DNA of 64,000 bases from the NCBI RefSeq assembly GCF_011682235.2, contig NZ_CP076718.1, forward strand, positions 617,758 to 681,757, in the 5' to 3' direction. The notes under the pieces were generated by a model. The model was not told where the DNA came from. It searched no databases and saw only the letters and a program-made list of their open reading frames with translations. The DNA is from Rhodocaloribacter litoris. Lineage in GTDB: Bacteria > Bacteroidota > Rhodothermia > Rhodothermales > ISCAR-4553. Both the position numbers and the translations under genes were made by a program. Within the stretch, counting starts at the first letter, position 1, and every line of letters begins with the position of its first letter. This document shows positions 21,911 through 33,551 of this stretch, piece after piece.

Positions 21911-23506
21911 TCAATGCCCCTCCGGCACGTCCAGCTCGAAGAAGGCCGTCACGCCGTCGCGCCGGAGGACGCGCAGGAGGACGGGCTCGCCGCGTTCGGC
22001 AGCCTGTGCAAACGCCTCGCGGGCCTCGGCGACGGACGCCACGGGCCGGTCGTCGACGTCGAGGAGGACCACGTCGCGGGGGAGGCCGGCGGCGGCGGCC
22101 ACGCTGCCGTGCGTCACGTAGGCCAGATAGAGGCCGTCCTCCACGTTGAAGACGTAGCGCTCGCGGGCACCGAGTTCCCGCACGCCCAGCCCCCAGGGAG
22201 CCAGTTCGGTCACCTCGTGCTGCGTCTCGCCGGGGGGCGGCGCCGGCGCGAGTTCCGGCGGCACGCTCTGGCGCTCGAGTTCGCTGACCCAGTTCTCGAA
22301 GACCGGGTCGTCGCGGCCGAGCAACTCGACGTTGAAGCGGGCGCGCGTGCCGTTACGCCATACGACGATGTCGAGCCGGTCGCCGGGGCGGCGGCGGGCC
22401 ACGGCGCTCTGCAACTCGTTCGGGGCATTGACCTCGTGGCCGTCGATGGAGAGCACGACGTCGCCGGTGCGCAGGCCGGCCCGATCGGCGGCCAGGCCGC
22501 GCCAGACCCGGCTCAGGAAAACCCCCTGGATGTGTTCCATACCCAGGGCCCGGGCCCGCCGGGCATCGACGGGACTGATCTCGACCCCCAGGTAGCCGCG
22601 CTGCACCTCCCCGAAGGCGATCAGGTCACTCACGACCCGCTCCACGAGGTTGACCGGCACGGCGAAACCGTAGCCTTCATAGGAGCCGCTCTCGGTGGCG
22701 ATGGCCGTGCTGATCCCGACCAGTTCCCCGGCCAGGTTGACGAGCGCGCCGCCGGAATTGCCCGGGTTGATCGCCGCGTCGGTCTGGATGAAGTCCTCGA
22801 TCCCGAAGCTGTCCTCGATGATGTTGACCTGCCGCCCGAGGGCGCTGATGATGCCGGCCGTGACAGTCGAGGTCAGGCGGAAGGGGTTACCGACGGCCAG
22901 CACCCATTCGCCCACCTCCACCTCGTCCGAGTTGCCCAGGGCGATCACGGGCAGCTCACTCGATCCCGGATCGATCTGCAGGACGGCCAGGTCCGTGTTC
23001 GGATCCGTCCCCACGATGGTGGCTTCGTACTGCCGCTTGTCCGACAGGGTCACCGTGATGCGGTCGGCCCCGCTGACGACATGGTTGTTCGTGACCACGT
23101 AGCCCTGCGGGCTGATGATGACCCCGCTGCCCACACTCTGGCGCGGGCTGCGCCGGCCGAAACGCTCGTCGAAGTTGTGGAACCAGCGCTCGCTACCGTC
23201 TTCGCGGGCCTCCACCTGAATGTAGACGACGGCAGGCGTGACCCGGCGTGCCACCTCCTTGAAGAGCCGGTTCAGCGTGCGGGCGTCCGCGGCGACCACC
23301 GGCGCGCTGGAGTCCGCCGGCAGGTAACGCGCCCCCGGCGACCGGCTCCCCAGCTCGACCCGCTCGACCACGGCCGGACGGGCCGGCTCCGGCAACCGGT
23401 CGTTCATCACGACGAGCATCACCAGGATGCCTGCCAGCAACCCGATCAGCACCAGACCGATCCCGGCCAGCAACAGGGGTAGACGAACGCGACGCGATCC
23501 TTCCAT
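21911..23506 (-). CDS. HtrA/DegP-type serine protease with two PDZ domains
   Basis: From ATG 23506 the protein (531 residues) has a short cytoplasmic head, a membrane anchor (about 9-34), a trypsin-like domain with triad H142 (TNNHVV), D172 (NTDLAVL) and S251 (GNSGGAL), then PDZ1 ([20 protein letters not shown]) and a divergent second PDZ-like domain at the C-terminus. It would degrade or refold damaged envelope proteins in the periplasm. The anchor instead of a cleaved signal is common in HtrA relatives. An upstream in-frame start at 23590 would put a Cys-rich stretch before the anchor and is less likely. Confidence 0.92.
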
Positions 23507-23638
23507 ATCTCGATCCTTGCAATGCGAGCGGCAGCAGGGTACATCCACCCTGCACGGGACGGATTGTTTCACCGGTGCCGTCTCGGTCAAAGAAAGCCGG
23601 CGCGGACGAAGGCCCGGCCTCCCGTCCCGTACGGCTGC

Positions 23639-24472
23639 TCACGCCGGCCGGCGAACCCCCGCCCGCGAACCGGCGCCCTCGGATGGGGAAGCCACCGGCG
23701 GGGCCGGGTGGGCGTCTCCGGCCAGGGCCCGCACCGCCGCATAGGCCTGCCGGGCGAGCGCCTTGCGATCCTGCCCGGCCGTCGGGATCGGCACACCCAC
23801 GCGCAGCTCCACGTGCACCTCCCGCACACCGAGCAGCGACCAGGCATGCCTCAACATCGGTTCCGCGGGATCGGACCAGGCGACGCGCCGCCGCAACGCC
23901 CCCGCGGCGGGGCGGCCGTCCACCGCGTCCACATGCAGGTAAAGCGGCAGCACGACGGCCTCCTCCATACCGGCTACGGCCTCGAACCCCCCCGTCTTGA
24001 AGGGCAGGAGAACGGCATCGCCCCGCGTCGTGGTCCCCTCGGGAAAAACGAGCACCCGCACCCCCTCGCGCAACCGGCTCTGTACCTGTTCGACGAACGC
24101 CTTCGTCGCCATGCGCCGCTCCCGTTCGACGAAGATAATGCCCACGGTCCGGCAGATCCACCCGACCACGGGCCAGCGCGCCATTTCGGCCTTGGCCACA
24201 AAGGCAAGGGGCATCTGCGAGGCCAGGATCCAGGGATCCAGCAGGCCGAGGTGGTTGCTGACGGCCAGCACGGCGTGGTGCCGGGGCAGGGTGCCCCGCA
24301 CCGTCACACGCACGCCGAGGATACAGCAGAAGACCCGGCAGGCACGCTGTTGCACCCGGGCCCGGTAGAGCGGGCGCCGGGCCTCGGGCACGAAGCGCAC
24401 CGACAGCCAGAGCCATCCCGTCCGGCTCAGGATGGACACGGTAAACCGTAGGAGCCGCCAGAGACGTCGCAT
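23639..24472 (-). CDS. 1-acyl-glycerol-3-phosphate acyltransferase (PlsC-like)
   Basis: From ATG 24472, 277 residues: an N-terminal hydrophobic segment (FTVSILSRTGWLWLSVRF), the acyltransferase HX4D motif NHLGLLD, the Arg-containing segment IIFVERERRMA, and FPEGTTTRGDAVLLPFKTGG, the glycerol-phosphate-binding motif. It transfers an acyl chain to lysophosphatidic acid, or to another polar-lipid acceptor, at the inner membrane. The C-terminus is a low-complexity Pro/Ala/Gly tail. The reading frame extends 107 codons upstream over the amidohydrolase gene, which is clearly not coding in this frame. Confidence 0.88.
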   Translation of the reverse strand: MRRLWRLLRFTVSILSRTGWLWLSVRFVPEARRPLYRARVQQRACRVFCCILGVRVTVRGTLPRHHAVLAVSNHLGLLDPWILASQMPLAFVAKAEMARWPVVGWICRTVGIIFVERERRMATKAFVEQVQSRLREGVRVLVFPEGTTTRGDAVLLPFKTGGFEAVAGMEEAVVLPLYLHVDAVDGRPAAGALRRRVAWSDPAEPMLRHAWSLLGVREVHVELRVGVPIPTAGQDRKALARQAYAAVRALAGDAHPAPPVASPSEGAGSRAGVRRPA

Positions 24473-24518: not shown

Positions 24519-26198
24519 TCACTCGGCGACGAATTGTTCCTCCCCGCCGACGACCGTGCGGAGGACACGCACCGCCCGGATCGCCTCCGGCTCGAGGGTG
24601 AACAGGTTCTCGGAAAGCACGATGAAATCGGCCAGGTAGCCGGGCGCCAGCCGGCCGAGACGGTCTTCCTGGAAGCCGGCGTAGGCGTTGGCAGCCGTAT
24701 ACGCCTGCAGCGCCTCCTCGACGGTGACCTTTTCCTCCGGCACCCAGCCCTCCGGGTGGGCCCCGTCGAGCGTGCGCCGGGTGACGGCCGCATAGACGCC
24801 TTCGAGCGGGTTCAGCGGCGCGACGGTCCAGTCGGAGCCGAAGGTCAGCGGGGCGCCGGCGTCGAGCAGGCTGCGGAAGGCGTACGTCGTCCGGATCCGT
24901 TCGGGGCCGATGCGCTTCTCGGCCCAGCGCCCGTCGTCGATGGCGTGGTAGGGCTGCATGGACGGGATGACGCCCTGCCGGGCGAAGCGAGGGAGGGCGT
25001 CGCGGGTGAGGTGCTGCGCATGTTCGATGCGGAAGCGCCGGTCACGGGGGCCGTTGGTGCGCGCCGCCCCGGCGTAGACGTCCAGCAGCCAGTCGTTGGC
25101 GCGGTCGCCGATGGCGTGGACGGCCACGTGCAGGCCGGCGGCGTCGGCCTGGAGGATGCGCGCGCGCAGGGCGGTGCTGTCCGTGACGAGCAGGCCGGTC
25201 GTCTCCGGGGCGTCGTCATAGGGCGCATAGAACCAGGCGGTCGTCGAGCCGAGGGAGCCGTCGACGAACCCCTTGAGGCCGCCCCAGCGGAGCCAGTCGT
25301 CGCCCCGCCCGTGCGCGTCGACGTAGGCGGCCAGGCGGGCCGCGTCGGCCAGCGGCACGAAGGCGTAGAGACGCAGCTTCAGCGCGCCGCGGGCGTGCGC
25401 CCGGCGGTAGGTCGCCAGGTCGGTCCACCCGCCGTAGGTCCCCATGTCGTGCACCTGCGTCACACCGAGGGCGACGGCGTGCGCCATGGCCCGTTCGAGC
25501 GCTTCGTCCAGCTCCTCCTCCGAAGGGGGCGGGATGACGGCGAAGACGAGGTCCATGGCGGCATCCTTCAGGATGCCGGTCGGCTCGCCCGTGGCCGGGT
25601 CGCGCACGATGGTGCCGCCGGCGGGGTCGGGCGTGTCGCGGGTGATGCCGGCCCGCTCGAGCGCCGGCGTGTTGGCCAGGGCCATGTGGCCGTCGAGGCG
25701 GCTGACGAAGACCGGGTTGTCGGGGGTGACCGCGTCGATCCATTCGCGGCGGGGCAGCTCGCCGCCCCAGGCCTCGTGGTCCCAGTCGCCCCCGGTGATC
25801 CACCGGCCGGGCGGCACCGTGCGGGCAAAGTCGGCCAGACGGCGGCGGAACGCCTCGGGCGAGGCGGCCGTGCGCAGGTCCACGCCCGCCAGCTGGAAGC
25901 CGCCGCCGAGGAAGTGCACGTGGTTGTCGATGAAGCCCGGCATGACGAAGCGCCCGCCGAGGTCGACCACGCGCGTCCGTGGCCCCCGAAAGGCCTCGAC
26001 CTCGGCCGCCGTCCCGACGGCCAGCAGCCGGTCCCCTTTCACCGCCAGCGCCTCGGCCGGCGGCGCACCGGGCACACCCGTCCAGACCTGCGCACGCGTG
26101 TAGATGGTGTCGGCCACCTCGGGCACGACCGGATCACAGGCTCCCATAGCTACCAACAGCATCAACGCCGGAAGCGACAGGCAGGCACGTGGCATCAT
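24519..26198 (-). CDS. Exported amidohydrolase (YtcJ/Amidohydro_3 type)
   Basis: A lipoprotein-type signal (MLLVAMGAC, Cys21) precedes a full metallo-dependent hydrolase of the YtcJ group. Visible metal-site motifs are GFIDNHVHF, HAIGDRAND, IEHAQHL and FGSDWTVAPLNPLEGVYAA. The C-terminal region with RLGRLAPGYLADFIVLSENL is typical of the family's beta-sandwich. Members hydrolyse amide or related bonds of largely unknown substrates. A lipoprotein form implies a periplasmic or surface location, common in Bacteroidota. It lies 46 bases downstream-strand from the acyltransferase and 21 from the sensor kinase, so co-transcription is possible. Confidence 0.9.
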   Translation of the reverse strand: MMPRACLSLPALMLLVAMGACDPVVPEVADTIYTRAQVWTGVPGAPPAEALAVKGDRLLAVGTAAEVEAFRGPRTRVVDLGGRFVMPGFIDNHVHFLGGGFQLAGVDLRTAASPEAFRRRLADFARTVPPGRWITGGDWDHEAWGGELPRREWIDAVTPDNPVFVSRLDGHMALANTPALERAGITRDTPDPAGGTIVRDPATGEPTGILKDAAMDLVFAVIPPPSEEELDEALERAMAHAVALGVTQVHDMGTYGGWTDLATYRRAHARGALKLRLYAFVPLADAARLAAYVDAHGRGDDWLRWGGLKGFVDGSLGSTTAWFYAPYDDAPETTGLLVTDSTALRARILQADAAGLHVAVHAIGDRANDWLLDVYAGAARTNGPRDRRFRIEHAQHLTRDALPRFARQGVIPSMQPYHAIDDGRWAEKRIGPERIRTTYAFRSLLDAGAPLTFGSDWTVAPLNPLEGVYAAVTRRTLDGAHPEGWVPEEKVTVEEALQAYTAANAYAGFQEDRLGRLAPGYLADFIVLSENLFTLEPEAIRAVRVLRTVVGGEEQFVAE

Positions 26199-26219: not shown

Positions 26220-29200
26220 TCACACCGGGGTCGAGCCCACCGACCGCCCCCCGGCCACGGCCCCCCGGGCGGGCACCCGCTCCGGCGTGAGAGAAGCACA
26301 GGCCCGAAACGAAACGGTGAAACAGCTCCCCTCCCCCTTCTTGCTCTGCACCGAGATCTTGCCGTCCATCAACTCGACGAGCTTCGCCGTGATGGCCAGG
26401 CCGAGACCGGTGCCCTCGTGCGAGCGCGAGAGCCCGTCCGACTCCTGCCGGAACTCCTCGAAAAGATGGGGCAGGAAAGCCTCCGAGATGCCGATGCCGG
26501 TATCCTGCACGTGCACGTGCACCCATTCGGCATCGCGTGAGAAGGCCACCGTCACGCTCCCTTTTTCGGTGAACTTGACGGCGTTGGAAACCAGGTTGCT
26601 CAGCACCCGCTCGAAGGCCGCCTCGTCGAGCAGGGCATAGACCGGCTCCGGCGGCGGAACCAGGGCCAGCTCCAGCCCCTTCTTGCGGGCCGCCTCCGAG
26701 AACATGCGCACCACTTCGGCGGCATGCCGCGCCAGGTCGACGGGATGGCGCTGCACCTCCATCACCCCGGCCCTGAGCTTGGCGATCTCGAGCAGCGACG
26801 TGAGCGTCTGCATCAGCCGGTTGCCGCTCTCCTCGATGATCCCCAGAAACTCCCGGTACGGCGCGTCTTCGGGCAGTTCGTACTTGAGCACTTCCGTAAA
26901 GCCCAGGATGGCCGTCAGCGGCGTGCGCAGCTCGTGCGAGGTCGTGGCCAGAAACTCGTCCTTCAGCTTGTTGGCCTGCCGGAGACGTTCGTTGGCGACC
27001 TGGAGTTGCGCATTGGCCTCCTCCAGCTTTCTGCGCACCTCGGCTTCCTGGGCCAGTTGCTTCGCCTGCTCCTCGGCCAGCCGCTTGATCTTCACCATCT
27101 GCACGTATTTCCAGGCGAAGAAGAGCAGGCTGAAGACCGCCAGGGCATAGAGCGAGTAGGCCCACCAGGTCCGGAACCAGGGCGGGCGGACGACGAACGG
27201 ATAGACGGTCTCCGCGCTGAGCCGCCCCAGCGCGTCCCGGGCCTGCACGTGCAGGCGATAGCCGCCCTCCTCGAGGTTCCTGTACGTGCGCCGGGCCTCC
27301 GGCGTCCAGGCCGACCACCCGGTATCGTACCCCTCCAGCCGGTAGCGGTAGACGATCTCCTCCGACCGGGTGAAGACCGGAGCCGCCACTTCGAAGGCCA
27401 GGTCGTTGTCTTCGAAGGCGAGGTGCAGGGCGGACGACGTGGCGGCATCGCCGGGCCCCCAGGCACCGGCATAGAGCAGCTCCTCCGTGTCGGAGACGCT
27501 GACCCGGCGCACCAGCACCTTGAACGGCTCGGAGCCGGCGTCTTCGGGAAGAAGCAGGTACCGGTAGAGGATCTCGCCGCTGCCCAGCCAGAGCACCCCC
27601 GGCTCCGTATAGATCACCTCCACGTCCCCCTTGGGGAAATGCAGGGCCGGAATCGACTCCACCCGGTATTGTCCCCCTTCGGCGGGACGTGCCACGTCCA
27701 TCCGGCTGGTGTAGGCCAGCCACACGTTGCCGTCCGCATCCTCCGCCACGGCCTTCAGCGTGTCACCGGCCGCCTCCACCAGCGGCGAGAGGATCGGGTC
27801 AGGATAGAACCCCCGGTGCGGCGTCGCCCCCGCCGTGGCCGGCGACGTGGTACCGAAACGATACACCCCCCGGCTCTTGTCCGAGAAGAAGAGGGCGCGC
27901 CCGCCCACCTCGGCCACCCGCAGGTTCTGCTCGACGAGCCCCCCTTCCACCCCGAACTTTTCCTGCACCGGCGGCGCGCCGAGTCCCTGCGTGAAACGCA
28001 GCCGCAGCACCCCCCGGGAACGCGTACCGATCCACAGCGTCCCGTCCGCTTCCTCCACGATCTGCCGCACCTCGTCCGTCACCCCCGGCACCGGGGTCAG
28101 TACCCAGCCGGCATCCGTATGGCGCAACAGGTCGAGCCTATCCCGCCGACCAACGTAAATGACCCCGTCATGGAGACGGGATGTGACGATTACATTCGCA
28201 GGAGACCTATCCGAAAAGAGAACCCCTTCCCCATTCCGCAACTGGTATATACCTTCTCCGCTACCAACAAACAAGGTGCTATCCAGCGAGAGCAGGCTCC
28301 ACGCGCGCGGCACGTTTTCCACCGGCACGAAGGCGGACCGTTCCCCTTCGAGTCGCCGGCCGAGCGGCCTGCTCTCGAGCGCATAGACTCCGGGCATTCC
28401 GCCCGTGGCCACGTAGAGCCGGCCCTGATGGCGCCGCACGTCGTAGACGGCCCCGGCCAGCCCCAGGCGTCGGTCGTACTGCGTCACGATGCCGGCGTAG
28501 GCCACACGCGCGATGCCGCTGTTATTCAGCGCCGCCCAGAGCCCGCCCTCGGCGTCGGCATAGACGAAGTTGACCACGTTGTCGGGCAGTTCGTGGGGCG
28601 GCGCCAGCACGCTCACCAGGCGCCCCCCCCGGTCGATGACGAGCACCCCGCCCCCCAGGGTGGCCAGCGCGAACCGGCCGCCGGGCAGGGCCGCCCCGTG
28701 ATAAACCGAATACTTCTCCAAAAACGGATCGGCCTCGGTCGCAAAAGGCCGGAAGGCCTGCCCGTCGTACAGAAAAAGCCCCGCCTCCCGTGTGGCGACG
28801 AGGATGCGGTCCGCCTCGTAGGGCAGCATCGCATAGACCCGGACCTCCTTGAAGCGCTCCCCGTCCGGAACCGGCCGCAGGGCATCGCCGGCCACCTCTT
28901 CGAGGCCGACGCCCGCCTCCCGCACGAAGAGCCGGCCCCGCACCGAGAAGGAGGTATGAAAAGACGTGCTGGTGGACCAGCGCCGCAGCTGCACGCCGTC
29001 CCAGCGGAAGAGATAAGCGTTCGTCTGGAAATAAATGCCGTCGGGCGTGGCGTGCGTGCCCCAGACGTCCTTGAAGTCCCGGGCGGCCGGATCCACCTCG
29101 GGCAACAGCGAGACGAACCCGGGCACCCCCAGCGAATCCGGCGCGAGGTAGCCGAAGTCGCCCTTCAAGCCCGCGTAAATCCTTCCGTCGACACCGACAG

Positions 29201-29492
29201 CCAGCGAGCGAACGACGGAGCCCGTCCGGATGAGTCTCCACCGCACCCCGTCGTATTCCAGCACACCGTCGTTGTTTCCCACGTAGACGATTCCCCGCCC
29301 GTCCTGCACTACGGCCCAGTTTTGATGATAGGCGCCGTACTCGTCCGGGGAGAAGTGGACGGTGTAATGCGGCAGCGGCAGGCCGCCCTCATGAAAGGCC
29401 GCCGGGTGCTGGGCCCTGCCGGGGAAGGGCAGGCACAGCACGAAGAGTAGCCATCCCAGATGTGAGCGATGAATCCGCATACGGTGGTGCAT
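26220..29492 (-). CDS. Large exported-domain sensor histidine kinase (Reg_prop/Y_Y_Y type)
   Basis: About 1090 residues: a signal peptide (HLGWLLFVLCLPFPGRAQ), a periplasmic double-propeller of Reg_prop-like repeats (IVYVGNNDGVLEYDG, LWIGTRSRGVLRL), a Y_Y_Y-type domain (YRYRLEGYDTGWSAWTPEAR), one membrane helix (TWWAYSLYALAVFSLLFFAW), a coiled coil, a HisKA domain (SHELRTPLTAIL) and an ATPase domain (DTGIGIS, GTGLGLAIT). Unlike the hybrid two-component systems common in Bacteroidota, it ends after the ATPase domain with no receiver or AraC domain, so a separate regulator is needed and none is adjacent. ATG 29492 or 29480 are both possible starts. The ligand is unknown. Confidence 0.88.
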   Translation of the reverse strand: MHHRMRIHRSHLGWLLFVLCLPFPGRAQHPAAFHEGGLPLPHYTVHFSPDEYGAYHQNWAVVQDGRGIVYVGNNDGVLEYDGVRWRLIRTGSVVRSLAVGVDGRIYAGLKGDFGYLAPDSLGVPGFVSLLPEVDPAARDFKDVWGTHATPDGIYFQTNAYLFRWDGVQLRRWSTSTSFHTSFSVRGRLFVREAGVGLEEVAGDALRPVPDGERFKEVRVYAMLPYEADRILVATREAGLFLYDGQAFRPFATEADPFLEKYSVYHGAALPGGRFALATLGGGVLVIDRGGRLVSVLAPPHELPDNVVNFVYADAEGGLWAALNNSGIARVAYAGIVTQYDRRLGLAGAVYDVRRHQGRLYVATGGMPGVYALESRPLGRRLEGERSAFVPVENVPRAWSLLSLDSTLFVGSGEGIYQLRNGEGVLFSDRSPANVIVTSRLHDGVIYVGRRDRLDLLRHTDAGWVLTPVPGVTDEVRQIVEEADGTLWIGTRSRGVLRLRFTQGLGAPPVQEKFGVEGGLVEQNLRVAEVGGRALFFSDKSRGVYRFGTTSPATAGATPHRGFYPDPILSPLVEAAGDTLKAVAEDADGNVWLAYTSRMDVARPAEGGQYRVESIPALHFPKGDVEVIYTEPGVLWLGSGEILYRYLLLPEDAGSEPFKVLVRRVSVSDTEELLYAGAWGPGDAATSSALHLAFEDNDLAFEVAAPVFTRSEEIVYRYRLEGYDTGWSAWTPEARRTYRNLEEGGYRLHVQARDALGRLSAETVYPFVVRPPWFRTWWAYSLYALAVFSLLFFAWKYVQMVKIKRLAEEQAKQLAQEAEVRRKLEEANAQLQVANERLRQANKLKDEFLATTSHELRTPLTAILGFTEVLKYELPEDAPYREFLGIIEESGNRLMQTLTSLLEIAKLRAGVMEVQRHPVDLARHAAEVVRMFSEAARKKGLELALVPPPEPVYALLDEAAFERVLSNLVSNAVKFTEKGSVTVAFSRDAEWVHVHVQDTGIGISEAFLPHLFEEFRQESDGLSRSHEGTGLGLAITAKLVELMDGKISVQSKKGEGSCFTVSFRACASLTPERVPARGAVAGGRSVGSTPV

Positions 29493-29951
29493 GCTCCGCA
29501 CAGACGGTTGGTCCCCCGGGGGCGATGAGCACCGCGGGCATACGAACACTTATCAACTACCATACCCGACGGTAAATCTTACCGTCCTGCGGGGAGTCAC
29601 CGGTAGGGTATCCTATCGGCTCTTACGGCCCACAGTTAAACGCGCGGCGGCGGCGCCGTGCCCCGGTCCGTTGCCCCGGAGCGGGAGGATACATTTTTTT
29701 CTAACTCAAAAACGCGAAAAACGCAAATTCTCTCGTACCCATTATAGTGGAGGCCGCAGGCAGCGCGGCGTGCCGCCGGACCCCACCGTGCGATGCAGCG
29801 CGGCACCCGCCGCCCCGGCCCCGGGACTGGGCCATGTTGTCCCCTGCGATGCGTCGCAGCCCCCTGTTCGATACCGGCTGCACCGCCAGGGACGTCACCG
29901 GCAAACTTTGCCGGAACTGCTAGCAGTTTACGACAAACCGGAGGAGTTACC
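29493..29951 (+). promoter_or_regulatory. Structured intergenic leader before repeat lipoprotein gene
   Basis: No gene is visible in these 459 bases. The left part holds an inverted repeat GACGGTAA-ATC-TTACCGTC (29568-29586) between the divergent genes. An AT-rich block (29694-29750) with CATTATAGT could be promoter DNA. The right 200 bases are GC-rich and foldable: CTGCGA-TGCG-TCGCAG, then two perfect palindromes side by side, CCGGCAAACTTTGCCGG (29898-29914) and AACTGCTAGCAGTT (29915-29928). A GGAGG sits about 8 bases before the lipoprotein ATG. This suggests a regulated, probably abundant small transcript. Confidence 0.55.
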
Positions 29952-30170
29952 ATGAAGAAGTTCCTTTCACTCTTGAGCGCCCTGTTGCTGGTGGTGGCCA
30001 TGACGGGCTGCACCGACAGCCTGACGGGCGTCACCGGCGGCGGTGAAAACCACAACACGAGCGTTGTCACCGGTGGTGGTGAAAACCACAACACTGGCGT
30101 CACAGGCGGTGGTGAAAACCACAACACTGGCGTCACCGGTGGCGGTGAAAACCACAACACCGGTGACTGA
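29952..30170 (+). CDS. Small lipoprotein made of four 11-residue repeats
   Basis: 72 residues. The lipoprotein signal is MKKFLSLLSALLLVVAMTGC with Cys20 as the lipidated residue. The mature 53 residues are CTDSLT followed by four copies of an 11-residue unit (G/V)VTGGGENHNT, ending TGD. Each repeat contains Glu, Asn, His, Asn in the order ENHN, so the surface would present four identical clusters that might bind metal or another ligand; that is speculation. I recognise no family. A GGAGG just before ATG 29952, a structured leader and a strong terminator (30260-30291) argue for a genuine, well expressed monocistronic gene. Confidence 0.8.
   Translation: MKKFLSLLSALLLVVAMTGCTDSLTGVTGGGENHNTSVVTGGGENHNTGVTGGGENHNTGVTGGGENHNTGD
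30027..30161 (+). repeat. Four tandem 33-bp coding repeats
   Basis: Units lie at 30027-30059, 30063-30095, 30096-30128 and 30129-30161, with one Ser codon inserted after the first. They share GGTGAAAACCACAACAC in every copy and differ mostly at third positions, so the peptide repeat is conserved while the DNA has drifted slightly. Copy-number change by slippage is possible. Confidence 0.9.
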
Positions 30171-30259
30171 GCCTCCGCCTGCTTCCCGGTGCGGCGGCCG
30201 GTCCGGTCGCCCACCGTGCGATACGCCCCCCTGACACCCGTCTTGGATGCATCGCACAC

Positions 30260-30291
30260 CCCGGTGGGCCTGCGGGTCCACCGGGTTTTTT
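30260..30291 (+). terminator. Rho-independent terminator of lipoprotein gene
   Basis: CCCGGTGGGCC (30260-30270), loop TGCG, and GGTCCACCGGG (30275-30285) form an 11-bp stem with one G-U pair, followed by six T (30286-30291). It ends about 120 bases after the lipoprotein stop. On the other strand no T-run follows, so it is directional. Confidence 0.85.
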
Positions 30292-30319
30292 GTTTCGGGT
30301 CACCGGTCCCGTGCCCGTT

Positions 30320-30524
30320 TCACGCAGGGGTTTCGGGAGCCGGTTCTTCCTCCTCCCACGTCTCGATGGCCTCCAGCACCGCCTCGACGATCTGGTCCTC
30401 CGGCACGGTGCGGACGATCTTGCCGCGCTTGAACAGGTGGGCCCGCCCGCGCCCGAGCGAGACGCCCAGGTCCGCGCCGGCGGCCTCGCCCGGCCCGTTG
30501 ACCGCACACCCCATCAGCGCCACG
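30320..30524 (-). pseudogene. ispG 3'-end fragment, copy A (ancestral tail)
   Basis: These 205 bases appear identical by eye to the last 205 bases of intact ispG (32346-32550), from CGTGGCGCTG to the TGA stop. They encode the last 67 residues, including the cluster-ligand motif [11 protein letters not shown], but have no start and no upstream ispG sequence. Sequence beyond the stop differs from that after copies B and C and leads into the lipoprotein terminator, so this is probably the original 3' end of the gene, cut off by the inserted units. Confidence 0.85.
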
Positions 30525-30592
30525 GCACCCCCGGCGCCATAGTGCGTAGAACCTGGTATATCATCCGCCCCAACCATGGCAAGGAACACACC

Positions 30593-30850
30593 ATGAATCC
30601 GGTCATGCAGCAGTTCATCAGGCGCCTGGAACGGCTCCCGGCAGCCGTGCAGGAGCGCTTCGTTCGACGGTTCCTGCGGGAGCTGGAGGAAGATCTACCT
30701 GCTGCGTACCAGGATACGGCCCAGATGCATGACGCCGAACGCGTACCCTTTGACCGTATCAAGCACCTCGCCGGCATCATCAAAGGCGGCCCCTCTGATG
30801 CTTCGTCCAATAAGAAGTACCTCGAAGGGTTTGGCGAACGTTCACTATAG
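30593..30850 (+). CDS. VapB-like antitoxin, copy 1
   Basis: 85 residues from ATG 30593, preceded by AAGGA at a good distance (30581-30585). The N-terminal half is helical and basic/acidic ([20 protein letters not shown]); the C-terminal half ends in [20 protein letters not shown], like the toxin-binding tails of antitoxins paired with PIN toxins. The stop TAG ends two bases before the toxin ATG, indicating coupled translation. A longer in-frame reading from 30290 runs through the ispG tail on the opposite strand and is not coding. The DNA-binding class is unclear. Confidence 0.75.
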
Positions 30851-30852
30851 CG

Positions 30853-31266
30853 ATGCCGGTAATTCTTGCAGATACGGGGCCGATTGTCGCGTATCTTCGT
30901 GAGAAGGACGCGTTTTTCGGGTGGGCCTATGAGCAGTTCAGTACCCTTCCCCTCCCCTTTTTGACGTGCGAAGCCGTTTTGACGGAAGCCGCGTATGTCC
31001 TGTATCGTAGCGGCGGCTATCCGGAGGCTGTGATGGAACTGGTGTCGGCAGGCGCACTGCGCGTCGGATTCCACATGGAAAAGGAAGCCGATGCGCTCAA
31101 GAACCTCTTGCAGCGTTACCGGGACATACCGATGGACCTGGCCGATGCATGCATGGTACGGATGAGCGAGTTGTACCCGGACAGCGCACTGCTGACCGTG
31201 GATTCCGATTTTCTCATTTACCGCAAGCATGAACGGGACGTGATTCCCCTGATCACGCCGAGATAG
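30853..31266 (+). CDS. PIN-domain toxin (VapC-like), copy 1
   Basis: 137 residues with the PIN ribonuclease pattern: D7 in ILADTGP, E40/E45 in CEAVLTEAA, D95/D98 in MDLADACMV and D117/D119 in LLTVDSDF. These acidic residues bind the metal ions that cleave RNA, often tRNA or rRNA in VapC toxins. Length and order after the antitoxin match type II systems. The gene is AT-richer than its neighbours, which hints at acquisition. The copy is intact, unlike the second one at 31851. Confidence 0.88.
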   Translation: MPVILADTGPIVAYLREKDAFFGWAYEQFSTLPLPFLTCEAVLTEAAYVLYRSGGYPEAVMELVSAGALRVGFHMEKEADALKNLLQRYRDIPMDLADACMVRMSELYPDSALLTVDSDFLIYRKHERDVIPLITPR

Positions 31267-31317
31267 CCGATGGCTCCGTGACCTGCTTTCTTGATGGAGG
31301 GAATGCCGCTGTCCCAC

Positions 31318-31522
31318 TCACGCAGGGGTTTCGGGAGCCGGTTCTTCCTCCTCCCACGTCTCGATGGCCTCCAGCACCGCCTCGACGATCTGGTCCTCCG
31401 GCACGGTGCGGACGATCTTGCCGCGCTTGAACAGGTGGGCCCGCCCGCGCCCGAGCGAGACGCCCAGGTCCGCGCCGGCGGCCTCGCCCGGCCCGTTGAC
31501 CGCACACCCCATCAGCGCCACG
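31318..31522 (-). pseudogene. ispG 3'-end fragment, copy B
   Basis: A second 205-bp copy of the ispG tail, apparently identical to copies A and C, from CGTGGCGCTG to TGA. Beyond the stop it shares the roughly 50-bp linker with the intact gene (GTGGGACAGCGGCATTCC on the minus strand), unlike copy A. It has no start codon and is a remnant. By position it was the regenerated gene end after the first insertion, before the next unit separated it from the rest of ispG, or it arose by later unit duplication. Confidence 0.85.
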
Positions 31523-31590
31523 GCACCCCCGGCGCCATGGTGCGTAGAACCTGGTGTATCATCCGCCCCAACCATGGCAAGGAATACACC

Positions 31591-31848
31591 ATGAATCCGG
31601 TCATGCAGCAGTTCATCAGGCGCCTGGAACGGCTCCCGGCAGCCGTGCAGGAGCACTTCGTTCGACGGTTCCTGCGGGAGCTGGAGGAAGATCTACCTGC
31701 TGCGTACCAGGATACGGCCCAGATGCATGACGCCGAACGCGTACCCTTTGACCGTATCAAGCACCTCGCCGGCATCATCAAAGGCGGCCCCTCTGATGCT
31801 TCGTCCAATAAGAAGTACCTCGAAGGGTTTGGCGAACGTTCACTATAG
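31591..31848 (+). CDS. VapB-like antitoxin, copy 2
   Basis: 85 residues, the same as copy 1 except Arg to His in AVQEHFVRR. The ribosome-site region (AAGGA at 31579-31583) and the stop two bases before the toxin ATG are conserved. It remains intact although its adjacent toxin is frameshifted, so it could still neutralise the toxin of copy 1. Selection to keep a free antitoxin is possible, but so is very recent duplication. Confidence 0.75.
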
Positions 31849-31850
31849 CG

Positions 31851-32293
31851 ATGCCGGTAATTCTTGCAGATACGGGGCCGATTGTCGCGTATCTTCGTGA
31901 GAAGGACGCATTTTTCGGGTGGGCCTATGAGCAGTTCAGTACCCTTCCCCTCCCCTTTTTGACGTGCGAAGCCGTTTTGACGGATTTTTGACGTGCGAAG
32001 CCGTTTTGACGGAAGCCGCGTATGTCCTGTATCGTAGCGGCGGCTATCCGGAGGCTGTGATGGAACTGGTGTCGGCAGGCGCACTGCGCGTCGGATTCCA
32101 CATGGAAAAGGAAGCCGACGCGCTCAAGAACCTCTTGCAGCGTTACCGGGACATACCGATGGACCTGGCCGATGCATGCATGGTACGGATGAGCGAGTTG
32201 TACCCGGACAGCGCACTGCTGACCGTGGATTCCGATTTTCTCATTTACCGCAAGCATGAACGGGACGTGATTCCCCTGATCACGCCGAGATAA
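31851..32293 (+). pseudogene. PIN-domain toxin, copy 2, frameshifted
   Basis: The start (MPVILADTGPIVAYL) and end (DSDFLIYRKHERDVIPLIT) match copy 1, but a 29-bp tandem duplication (31956-31984 and 31985-32013) shifts the frame after CEAVLT and brings an immediate stop (reads DF then TGA). The product would be about 46 residues with only the first catalytic Asp. A restart within the duplicated segment (GTG 31964) would give a 109-residue protein lacking D7. The toxin is probably inactive. Confidence 0.85.
31956..32013 (+). repeat. 29-bp tandem duplication in toxin copy 2
   Basis: Two perfect copies of a 29-bp unit starting TTTTTGACGTGCGAAG and ending TTTTGACGGA, at 31956-31984 and 31985-32013. 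The single copy is present in toxin 1. Because 29 is not a multiple of three it inactivates the gene. Each unit starts and ends near the shared string TTTTGACG, which may have favoured slippage. Confidence 0.9.
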
Positions 32294-32345
32294 ATCGATG
32301 GCTCCGTGACCTGCTTTCTTGATGGAGGGAATGCCGCTGTCCCAC

Positions 32346-33440
32346 TCACGCAGGGGTTTCGGGAGCCGGTTCTTCCTCCTCCCACGTCTCGATGGCCTCC
32401 AGCACCGCCTCGACGATCTGGTCCTCCGGCACGGTGCGGACGATCTTGCCGCGCTTGAACAGGTGGGCCCGCCCGCGCCCGAGCGAGACGCCCAGGTCCG
32501 CGCCGGCGGCCTCGCCCGGCCCGTTGACCGCACACCCCATCAGCGCCACGTTCAGGTCCTTCGTGAACCGCCGCTTCTTGACGGCCTCCTCCACCTCATT
32601 GACGATGGAGAACAGGTCGCCCGTGAGGCGGCCGCACGTGGGGCAGGCGATGATGTTCACGCCGGGCCGCCCCAGGCGCAGCGCCTTCAGGATCTGGTGC
32701 CCCACCTCCACCTCCTTGACCGAGTCCGTCGCCAGCGAGACCCGGATCGTATCGCCGATGCCGTCGGCCAGCAGGGCGCCGATGCCGATGGCGCTCTTGA
32801 TCGAGCCCGTGCTGAAGGAGCCGGACTCCGTCACGCCCAGGTGCAGCGGGTAGTCGGTGCGCTCGGCCAGCAGCCGGTAGGCCTGGATCATGAAGAACAC
32901 GTCCGAGTGCTTGACCGAGATGACGAGGTCCTCGAAGCCGTGCTTCCGGCAGATCTCGACGTGCCGCATGGCGCTCTCGAAGAGGGCCTCGGGCTGCGGG
33001 TAGCCGTACTTGTCGAGGAGGTCGCGCTCGAGCGAGCCGGAGTTGACGCCGATGCGGATGGGGATGCCGGCCTCTTTGGCCGCCAGCAGCACCTCGCGCT
33101 CCCATTCCTCCTTGCCGATGTTGCCCGGGTTGATGCGCACCTTGGCCACCCCCGCCTCGATGGCCTTGAGGGCGTACTGGTAGTTGAAATGGATGTCCGC
33201 CACGATGGGCACGGGGCTGCCCTGCACGATGTCCCGCAGGGCGTCGGCATCCTCGGGGCGCGGCACGGCCACGCGCACGATGTCGGCGCCGGCCTCGGCC
33301 AGGCGTCGGATCTCGGCCAGGCTGGCCTCCACGTCGTGCGTCTTCGACGTGGTCATCGACTGCACCGAGATCGGCGCACCGCCGCCGATCTGCACGTTCC
33401 CCACCTGCACGGGACGGGATTTCCGGCGAGGTCGTTCCAT
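32346..33440 (-). CDS. ispG: 4-hydroxy-3-methylbut-2-enyl diphosphate synthase (flavodoxin)
   Basis: IspG (GcpE) is the penultimate enzyme of the MEP isoprenoid pathway: it reduces MEcPP to HMBPP with a [4Fe-4S] cluster. The 364-residue product has the TIM barrel (VQSMTTSKTHDVEASLAEIR, VRINPGNIG, HLGVTESGSFSTGSIKSAIG) and the cluster-binding part with CPTCGR and [11 protein letters not shown]. Length is normal for the single-domain bacterial form. Its last 205 bp are also present twice downstream (30320, 31318). The intact tail seems to be one brought in with an inserted toxin-antitoxin unit. ispE of the same pathway is in the window at 41175. Confidence 0.96.
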   Translation of the reverse strand: MERPRRKSRPVQVGNVQIGGGAPISVQSMTTSKTHDVEASLAEIRRLAEAGADIVRVAVPRPEDADALRDIVQGSPVPIVADIHFNYQYALKAIEAGVAKVRINPGNIGKEEWEREVLLAAKEAGIPIRIGVNSGSLERDLLDKYGYPQPEALFESAMRHVEICRKHGFEDLVISVKHSDVFFMIQAYRLLAERTDYPLHLGVTESGSFSTGSIKSAIGIGALLADGIGDTIRVSLATDSVKEVEVGHQILKALRLGRPGVNIIACPTCGRLTGDLFSIVNEVEEAVKKRRFTKDLNVALMGCAVNGPGEAAGADLGVSLGRGRAHLFKRGKIVRTVPEDQIVEAVLEAIETWEEEEPAPETPA

Positions 33441-33551
33441 AACGCGCTCTTCGTCAAAGGATTGGTTTTCCGGTGGAATGTGCCCTCTATACCCGCGCGG
33501 TTCGCCGGGGTTCGGCCTCGCGGCCCGCCCCGGTCTGCCCGGGTGCGGTCT

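Follow-up and report, generated by a model that had tools for sequence, protein, structure and literature searches.

In the Cpx envelope-stress system of Escherichia coli, cpxP is divergent from cpxRA and its product is an inhibitor of CpxA that DegP degrades, while a lipoprotein, NlpE, reports defects in lipoprotein trafficking and sorting to CpxA (PMC6737893). Another close known system is the Reg_prop/Y_Y_Y hybrid two-component sensors of Bacteroides (BT4663 class), and solved propeller/Y_Y_Y sensors from this group bind sugars (PMC5121618). We analyzed a 64,000-nucleotide stretch of the Rhodocaloribacter litoris genome (hereafter the window; contig NZ_CP076718.1), in which the following features combine elements of both arrangements.

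21911 to 23590, minus strand: membrane-anchored HtrA/DegP-like trypsin-PDZ protease with a GNSGG active site; its place downstream of the kinase is conserved
23639 to 24472, minus strand: PlsC-type acyltransferase (PF01553), likewise in a conserved place after the kinase (Pfam and neighborhoods)
24519 to 26198, minus strand: Amidohydro_3 protein with a lipoprotein signal, an optional member of the locus (Pfam and neighborhoods)
26220 to 29549, minus strand: histidine kinase with the order Reg_prop, Y_Y_Y, HisKA, HATPase_c (Pfam and tree); its start probably lies near 29480
29898 to 29928, no strand: perfect palindromes CCGGCAAACTTTGCCGG and AACTGCTAGCAGTT, adjoining each other just ahead of the lipoprotein gene (sequence)
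29933 to 29940, plus strand: upstream element ACAAACCG, present at a similar place in family f5 orthologs
29940 to 29946, plus strand: ribosome binding site GGAGGAG, before the ATG (sequence)
29952 to 30170, plus strand: small lipoprotein gene, 72 amino acids with four VTGGGENHNT repeats (open reading frame call, TRF, profile match)
30260 to 30292, plus strand: intrinsic terminator of the lipoprotein gene, strong (30260-30285) and followed by TTTTTT

The locus resembles the E. coli CpxP/NlpE-CpxA-CpxR-DegP system in having a small envelope protein, a gene for it that is divergent from the kinase gene, as is cpxP, and an HtrA. The parts themselves are different. The lipoprotein has no sequence likeness to CpxP or NlpE, and whereas CpxP is a soluble protein with a Spy-like fold and NlpE contains two beta-barrel domains, the protein here looks unfolded and repetitive and the sensor of the kinase is a double propeller. 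Searches of Pfam and NCBIfam return no CpxP or NlpE match for the lipoprotein family, so it is not a homologous member, and the resemblance appears to be one of arrangement only. The partner kinase shares its periplasmic domain order with the BT4663 class but, unlike those sensors, is not a hybrid and adjoins HtrA, PlsC, and a tiny lipoprotein. Pfam finds neither a receiver domain nor a DNA-binding (HTH) domain in its open reading frame, so strictly speaking the kinase does not qualify as an HTCS. The lipoprotein is like the small YgdI/YgdR, LPAM_1, and LptM families in its signal peptide and lipobox only; it falls below their curated cut-offs (12.6 bits against LPAM_1, where the cut-off is 20 bits) and differs in repeats and locus.

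The open reading frame, ribosome binding site, and terminator agree on a gene at 29952-30170 for a tiny predicted lipoprotein, as a sequence-only reading of the window had proposed. Its N-terminus (MKKF...VVAMTGC) follows the lipobox class rule of a basic start, a hydrophobic stretch, and [LVI][ASTVI][GAS]C, except for M at -3, and the putative lipobox (MTG before C20) leaves 53 mature residues. The protein reads MKKFLSLLSALLLVVAMTGC, then TDSLTG, VTGGGENHNT, SV, VTGGGENHNT, G, VTGGGENHNT, G, VTGGGENHNT, and GD. The same reading described four identical 11-residue repeats; the VTGGGENHNT core does occur as four identical peptide copies, but a period of 11 holds only for the last three, as S-V-V after the first copy makes its period 12 and the fourth copy closes with TGD. 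TRF reports a 33-nt unit in 4.0 copies with a score of 192, the top-scoring array of the window, and the motif has no second occurrence in the 4.5-Mb genome. Elsewhere in that genome, a noncoding tandem array of the 21-nt unit GAAACGCACAACGTGTAACCC (L101, G000:C1:960656-960772) was considered as a family member and rejected, its 21-nt repeat having an in-frame stop.

Codon differences among the four core copies fall in third positions only and are all synonymous. Across the full-length arrays of seven family members, chosen for their regular arrays and analyzed over whole arrays rather than the core alone, variation is synonymous in 20 codon columns and nonsynonymous in four, against an expectation of six synonymous (p = 3e-9). 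Because variable codons are overwhelmingly synonymous, the array is selected as protein and is not a fresh DNA duplication, which bears out the earlier proposal of selection on the amino acid sequence.

Neither Pfam nor NCBIfam gives the window lipoprotein a family match at cut-off, in agreement with the view that it fits no known family. An exact DNA pattern of the motif had zero matches in 98 related genomes and a protein search with one sequence was of little use, because the repeats are too divergent between members; degenerate tandem patterns and later a profile recovered the family. Upstream of kinase homologs lie other tiny lipoproteins, with NEAHN six times in G002 and GGDGHNV five times in G005, for example, and the tandem pattern [DE]-x-H-N added G026, G038, G106, G108, and others. 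Neighborhoods of ispG and the kinase supplied 19 members for alignment A1, in which the lipobox Cys is invariant. The A1 profile matches the window protein (E = 7e-12; the window sequence is itself among the 19 rows) and, together with inspection of matches, identified orthologs in 47 genomes, all of the window's order. Beyond the order, the profile gave matches with E of about 1e-6 to 1e-4; these fall mostly within longer open frames, align mainly at the signal-peptide end, and were not counted. Matches in a scan of genome contigs were to Clostridia and likewise involved the signal peptide only. A search of the PDB with the profile returned no sequence match to a solved structure.

Members share an architecture more than a sequence. 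The mature protein starts with a C-x-x-D-S-L-V-G-P type of sequence; the general pattern is a lipobox, then C-x(1,2)-[DNST]-[SAT]-[LIV]-x-G, and CTDSLTG of the window protein conforms. An acidic or Gly-rich linker or tail is shared as well, net charge is negative in 47 of 47, and all mature proteins are acidic with few aromatic residues. The C-terminal motif [GD]-x-[HTGR]-N occurs in 1 to 14 copies with unrelated periods of 7, 8, 11, and 17 residues, and its Asn is the most constant residue across the family. Thr or Gly takes the place of His in every copy in G066 (SDGGNE six times), G029 (DGTNQ 14 times), G091, G100, and G016, and no HN pair occurs in G009 or G103; Asn is retained in all of these. 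In families f7 and f9, there are single-motif members with about 30-45 mature residues. The repeat sequence varies between genera while the architecture is constant, and close species have the same motif. Some individual members match Gp5_trimer_C, Phage_fiber, or an ice-binding beta roll in Pfam; these matches were discounted as low-complexity likeness because periods differ among orthologs and some have one copy. From these shared features, the lipoprotein belongs to an uncatalogued family that is spread across one bacterial order. In three genomes of family f9 (G009, G030, and G021; loci L212, L226, and L177), the lipoprotein gene is tandemly duplicated, and the copies in G009 and G030 have a Cys pair near the C-terminus.

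The main fact, absent from the sequence-only reading, is that the lipoprotein and kinase genes form a conserved pair, with HtrA in the locus. In 39 of the 47 genomes, G068 and that of the window among them, the lipoprotein gene is divergent from a kinase of a single double-propeller (Reg_prop/Y_Y_Y) clade, with gaps of about 45-1500 bp. The remaining eight comprise contig ends (G057, G096), a kinase remnant (G089), and relocated genes (G029, G091, G100, G060, G099). The lipoprotein gene is away from the kinase in G029, G091, and G100, with genus g23 (G029, G100) keeping both genes at different places, and is directly divergent from HtrA in G060 and G099. On the kinase tree, carriage of the lipoprotein needs 3 changes, whereas shuffled labels need 11.6 and none of 500 shuffles went as low, a result that predates the addition of G009, G013, and G023 as carriers. 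These three were found by a location-blind profile search, which placed the gene divergent beside three of the five kinases of the clade that had initially been scored as having no lipoprotein. Propeller kinases outside the clade in the tree have the lipoprotein in 0 of 13 cases. Among genomes G000-G029, it is present in 15 of 15 with a clade kinase and 0 of 15 without, counts that represent related genomes rather than 30 independent events and include three kinase placements resting on fragments.

Losses follow a similar pattern. The kinase is deleted in G062 and G098, where ispG abuts plsC, and is a remnant in G080 and G086; no lipoprotein was found in any of these draft genomes, in which the relevant stretches are inside contigs. 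Genome G089 is a counterexample, retaining the lipoprotein next to a kinase remnant. Together, neighborhoods and tree show the lipoprotein to be co-inherited, as the divergent partner of one clade, with a kinase predicted to sense the periplasm.

The PlsC-type acyltransferase and HtrA come after the clade kinase, HtrA in 26 genomes, window included; none of eight propeller kinases checked outside the clade has HtrA downstream. In G038 and G029, there is no HtrA within 7-10 kb of the kinase. The amidohydrolase was rejected as a core partner, being missing from most loci. In G029 and G091, a TPR-CHAT protein adjoins the relocated lipoprotein gene. At two loci of genus g23 (L213:1013-3970 and L229:860-3871), the lipoprotein gene (12-14 DGTNQ repeats) is just upstream of, and on the same strand as, the gene for this protein, which has a lipoprotein-like start and is a possible protease partner.

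Elements flanking the lipoprotein gene are of uneven conservation. The element ACAAACCG, a single copy within the window, would fit regulation by a response regulator that partners the kinase. The palindromes are possible operators and are not conserved in lipoprotein orthologs. An Rfam scan of 29300-33500 found no RNA family, and folding of the leader RNA is no better than that of shuffles (z -0.6). Beyond the terminator, 30320-32645 holds a pair of units, roughly 1 kb long and arranged head to tail; both contain 300 nt copied from the 3' end of ispG, a small open reading frame, and a PIN-domain gene. The ispG copies are 99% identical to each other and 77% to true ispG over that stretch, and the region resembles a toxin-antitoxin element inserted at the 3' end of ispG, with duplication afterwards. 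An exact 29-bp tandem duplication (31956-32013) disrupts the second PIN-domain gene copy.

Neighborhoods demonstrate the genetic linkage of lipoprotein, kinase, and HtrA; the biochemical mechanism we infer by analogy. Our favored reading, held at slightly short of even confidence, is that the lipoprotein would be a small accessory part of a two-component system for envelope quality control in this Rhodothermales-like order, similar in role to CpxP or NlpE with CpxA and DegP. The mature protein may form an unfolded Gly/Asn/acidic tether in the periplasm, with the [GD]x[HTG]N motif, in one copy or several, docking on the propeller sensor and holding or switching kinase activity. Envelope trouble, such as mislocalized lipoproteins or misfolded proteins, would alter the amount of lipoprotein reaching the kinase, whether through mis-sorting, titration, or cutting by HtrA. 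The kinase would then shift expression of the locus, lipoprotein included, and repeat number could set avidity or dose. A more specific proposal, which we consider possible though on balance unlikely, is that a class of propeller histidine kinases, so far known as sugar sensors, would read a self-made, lipid-tethered peptide, with [GD]x[HTG]N, in a copy number that expands and contracts, serving as ligand and HtrA governing how much of it is available. The TolB propeller recognizes a disordered Gly/Asp/Asn-rich colicin epitope and also the lipoprotein Pal. Recognition of an unfolded Gly-rich peptide and a lipoprotein by a periplasmic propeller would have a counterpart there, as a structural analogy only.

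The chief alternative is that the lipoprotein is the main target gene of the kinase, which senses some other cue such as a glycan or an ion, and that an abundant lipid-anchored polypeptide modifies the envelope as a spacer, hydration, or charge layer. Divergent placement is also typical of a regulator and its target, and the gene neighborhood fits a ligand and a target gene alike and cannot decide between them. Sugar binding by the cited Reg_prop/Y_Y_Y sensors (PMC5121618), the uniformly acidic and aromatic-poor composition, and conservation of ACAAACCG between the window and family f5 are each consistent with a target gene. However, the short single-motif members of f7 and f9 are awkward for a bulk structural role, the core motif survives every change in period, and lipoprotein and kinase are lost together. 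We therefore regard this alternative as possible without expecting it to be correct.

Two other explanations are less probable. Repeats that are genus-specific within a constant architecture, as in signal-receptor pairs, a protease encoded in the locus, and the CHAT-TPR neighbor in g23 would suit a secreted or surface peptide signal, in which HtrA or another protease frees motif fragments that neighboring cells sense through the propeller kinase. Yet there is no known release step, close species carry the same motif, and the lipoprotein is without a surface export signal, making such signaling improbable. The last point also applies to the surface display suggested by the sequence-only reading. 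In Bacteroidota, the lipoprotein export signal lies immediately downstream of the Cys, at +2 to +6, and requires two or more acidic residues behind a polar or basic one (PMC5080379); C-T-D-S-L-T has one acidic residue, and surface display is unsupported because this signature is lacking. A metal- or ligand-binding surface lipoprotein, for which the same reading suggested metal-binding assays, is the least probable of all and we consider it very unlikely. Many members do repeat His along with acidic and Asn residues, but His is replaced in every copy in five orthologs (G066, G029, G091, G100, and G016), G009 and G103 lack the HN pair, and the conserved neighbors include no metal genes. Metal binding is thus disfavored as the function of the family.

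A lipoprotein family too small and repetitive for ordinary annotation is now linked with a quality-control protease and a sensor kinase. If the favored reading is true, this order related to Bacteroidota would have an envelope-stress circuit comparable to Cpx and built from different parts, and propeller histidine kinases would gain a candidate polypeptide ligand. Because repeat length and sequence vary freely and the core stays the same, the family offers a natural series for testing recognition.
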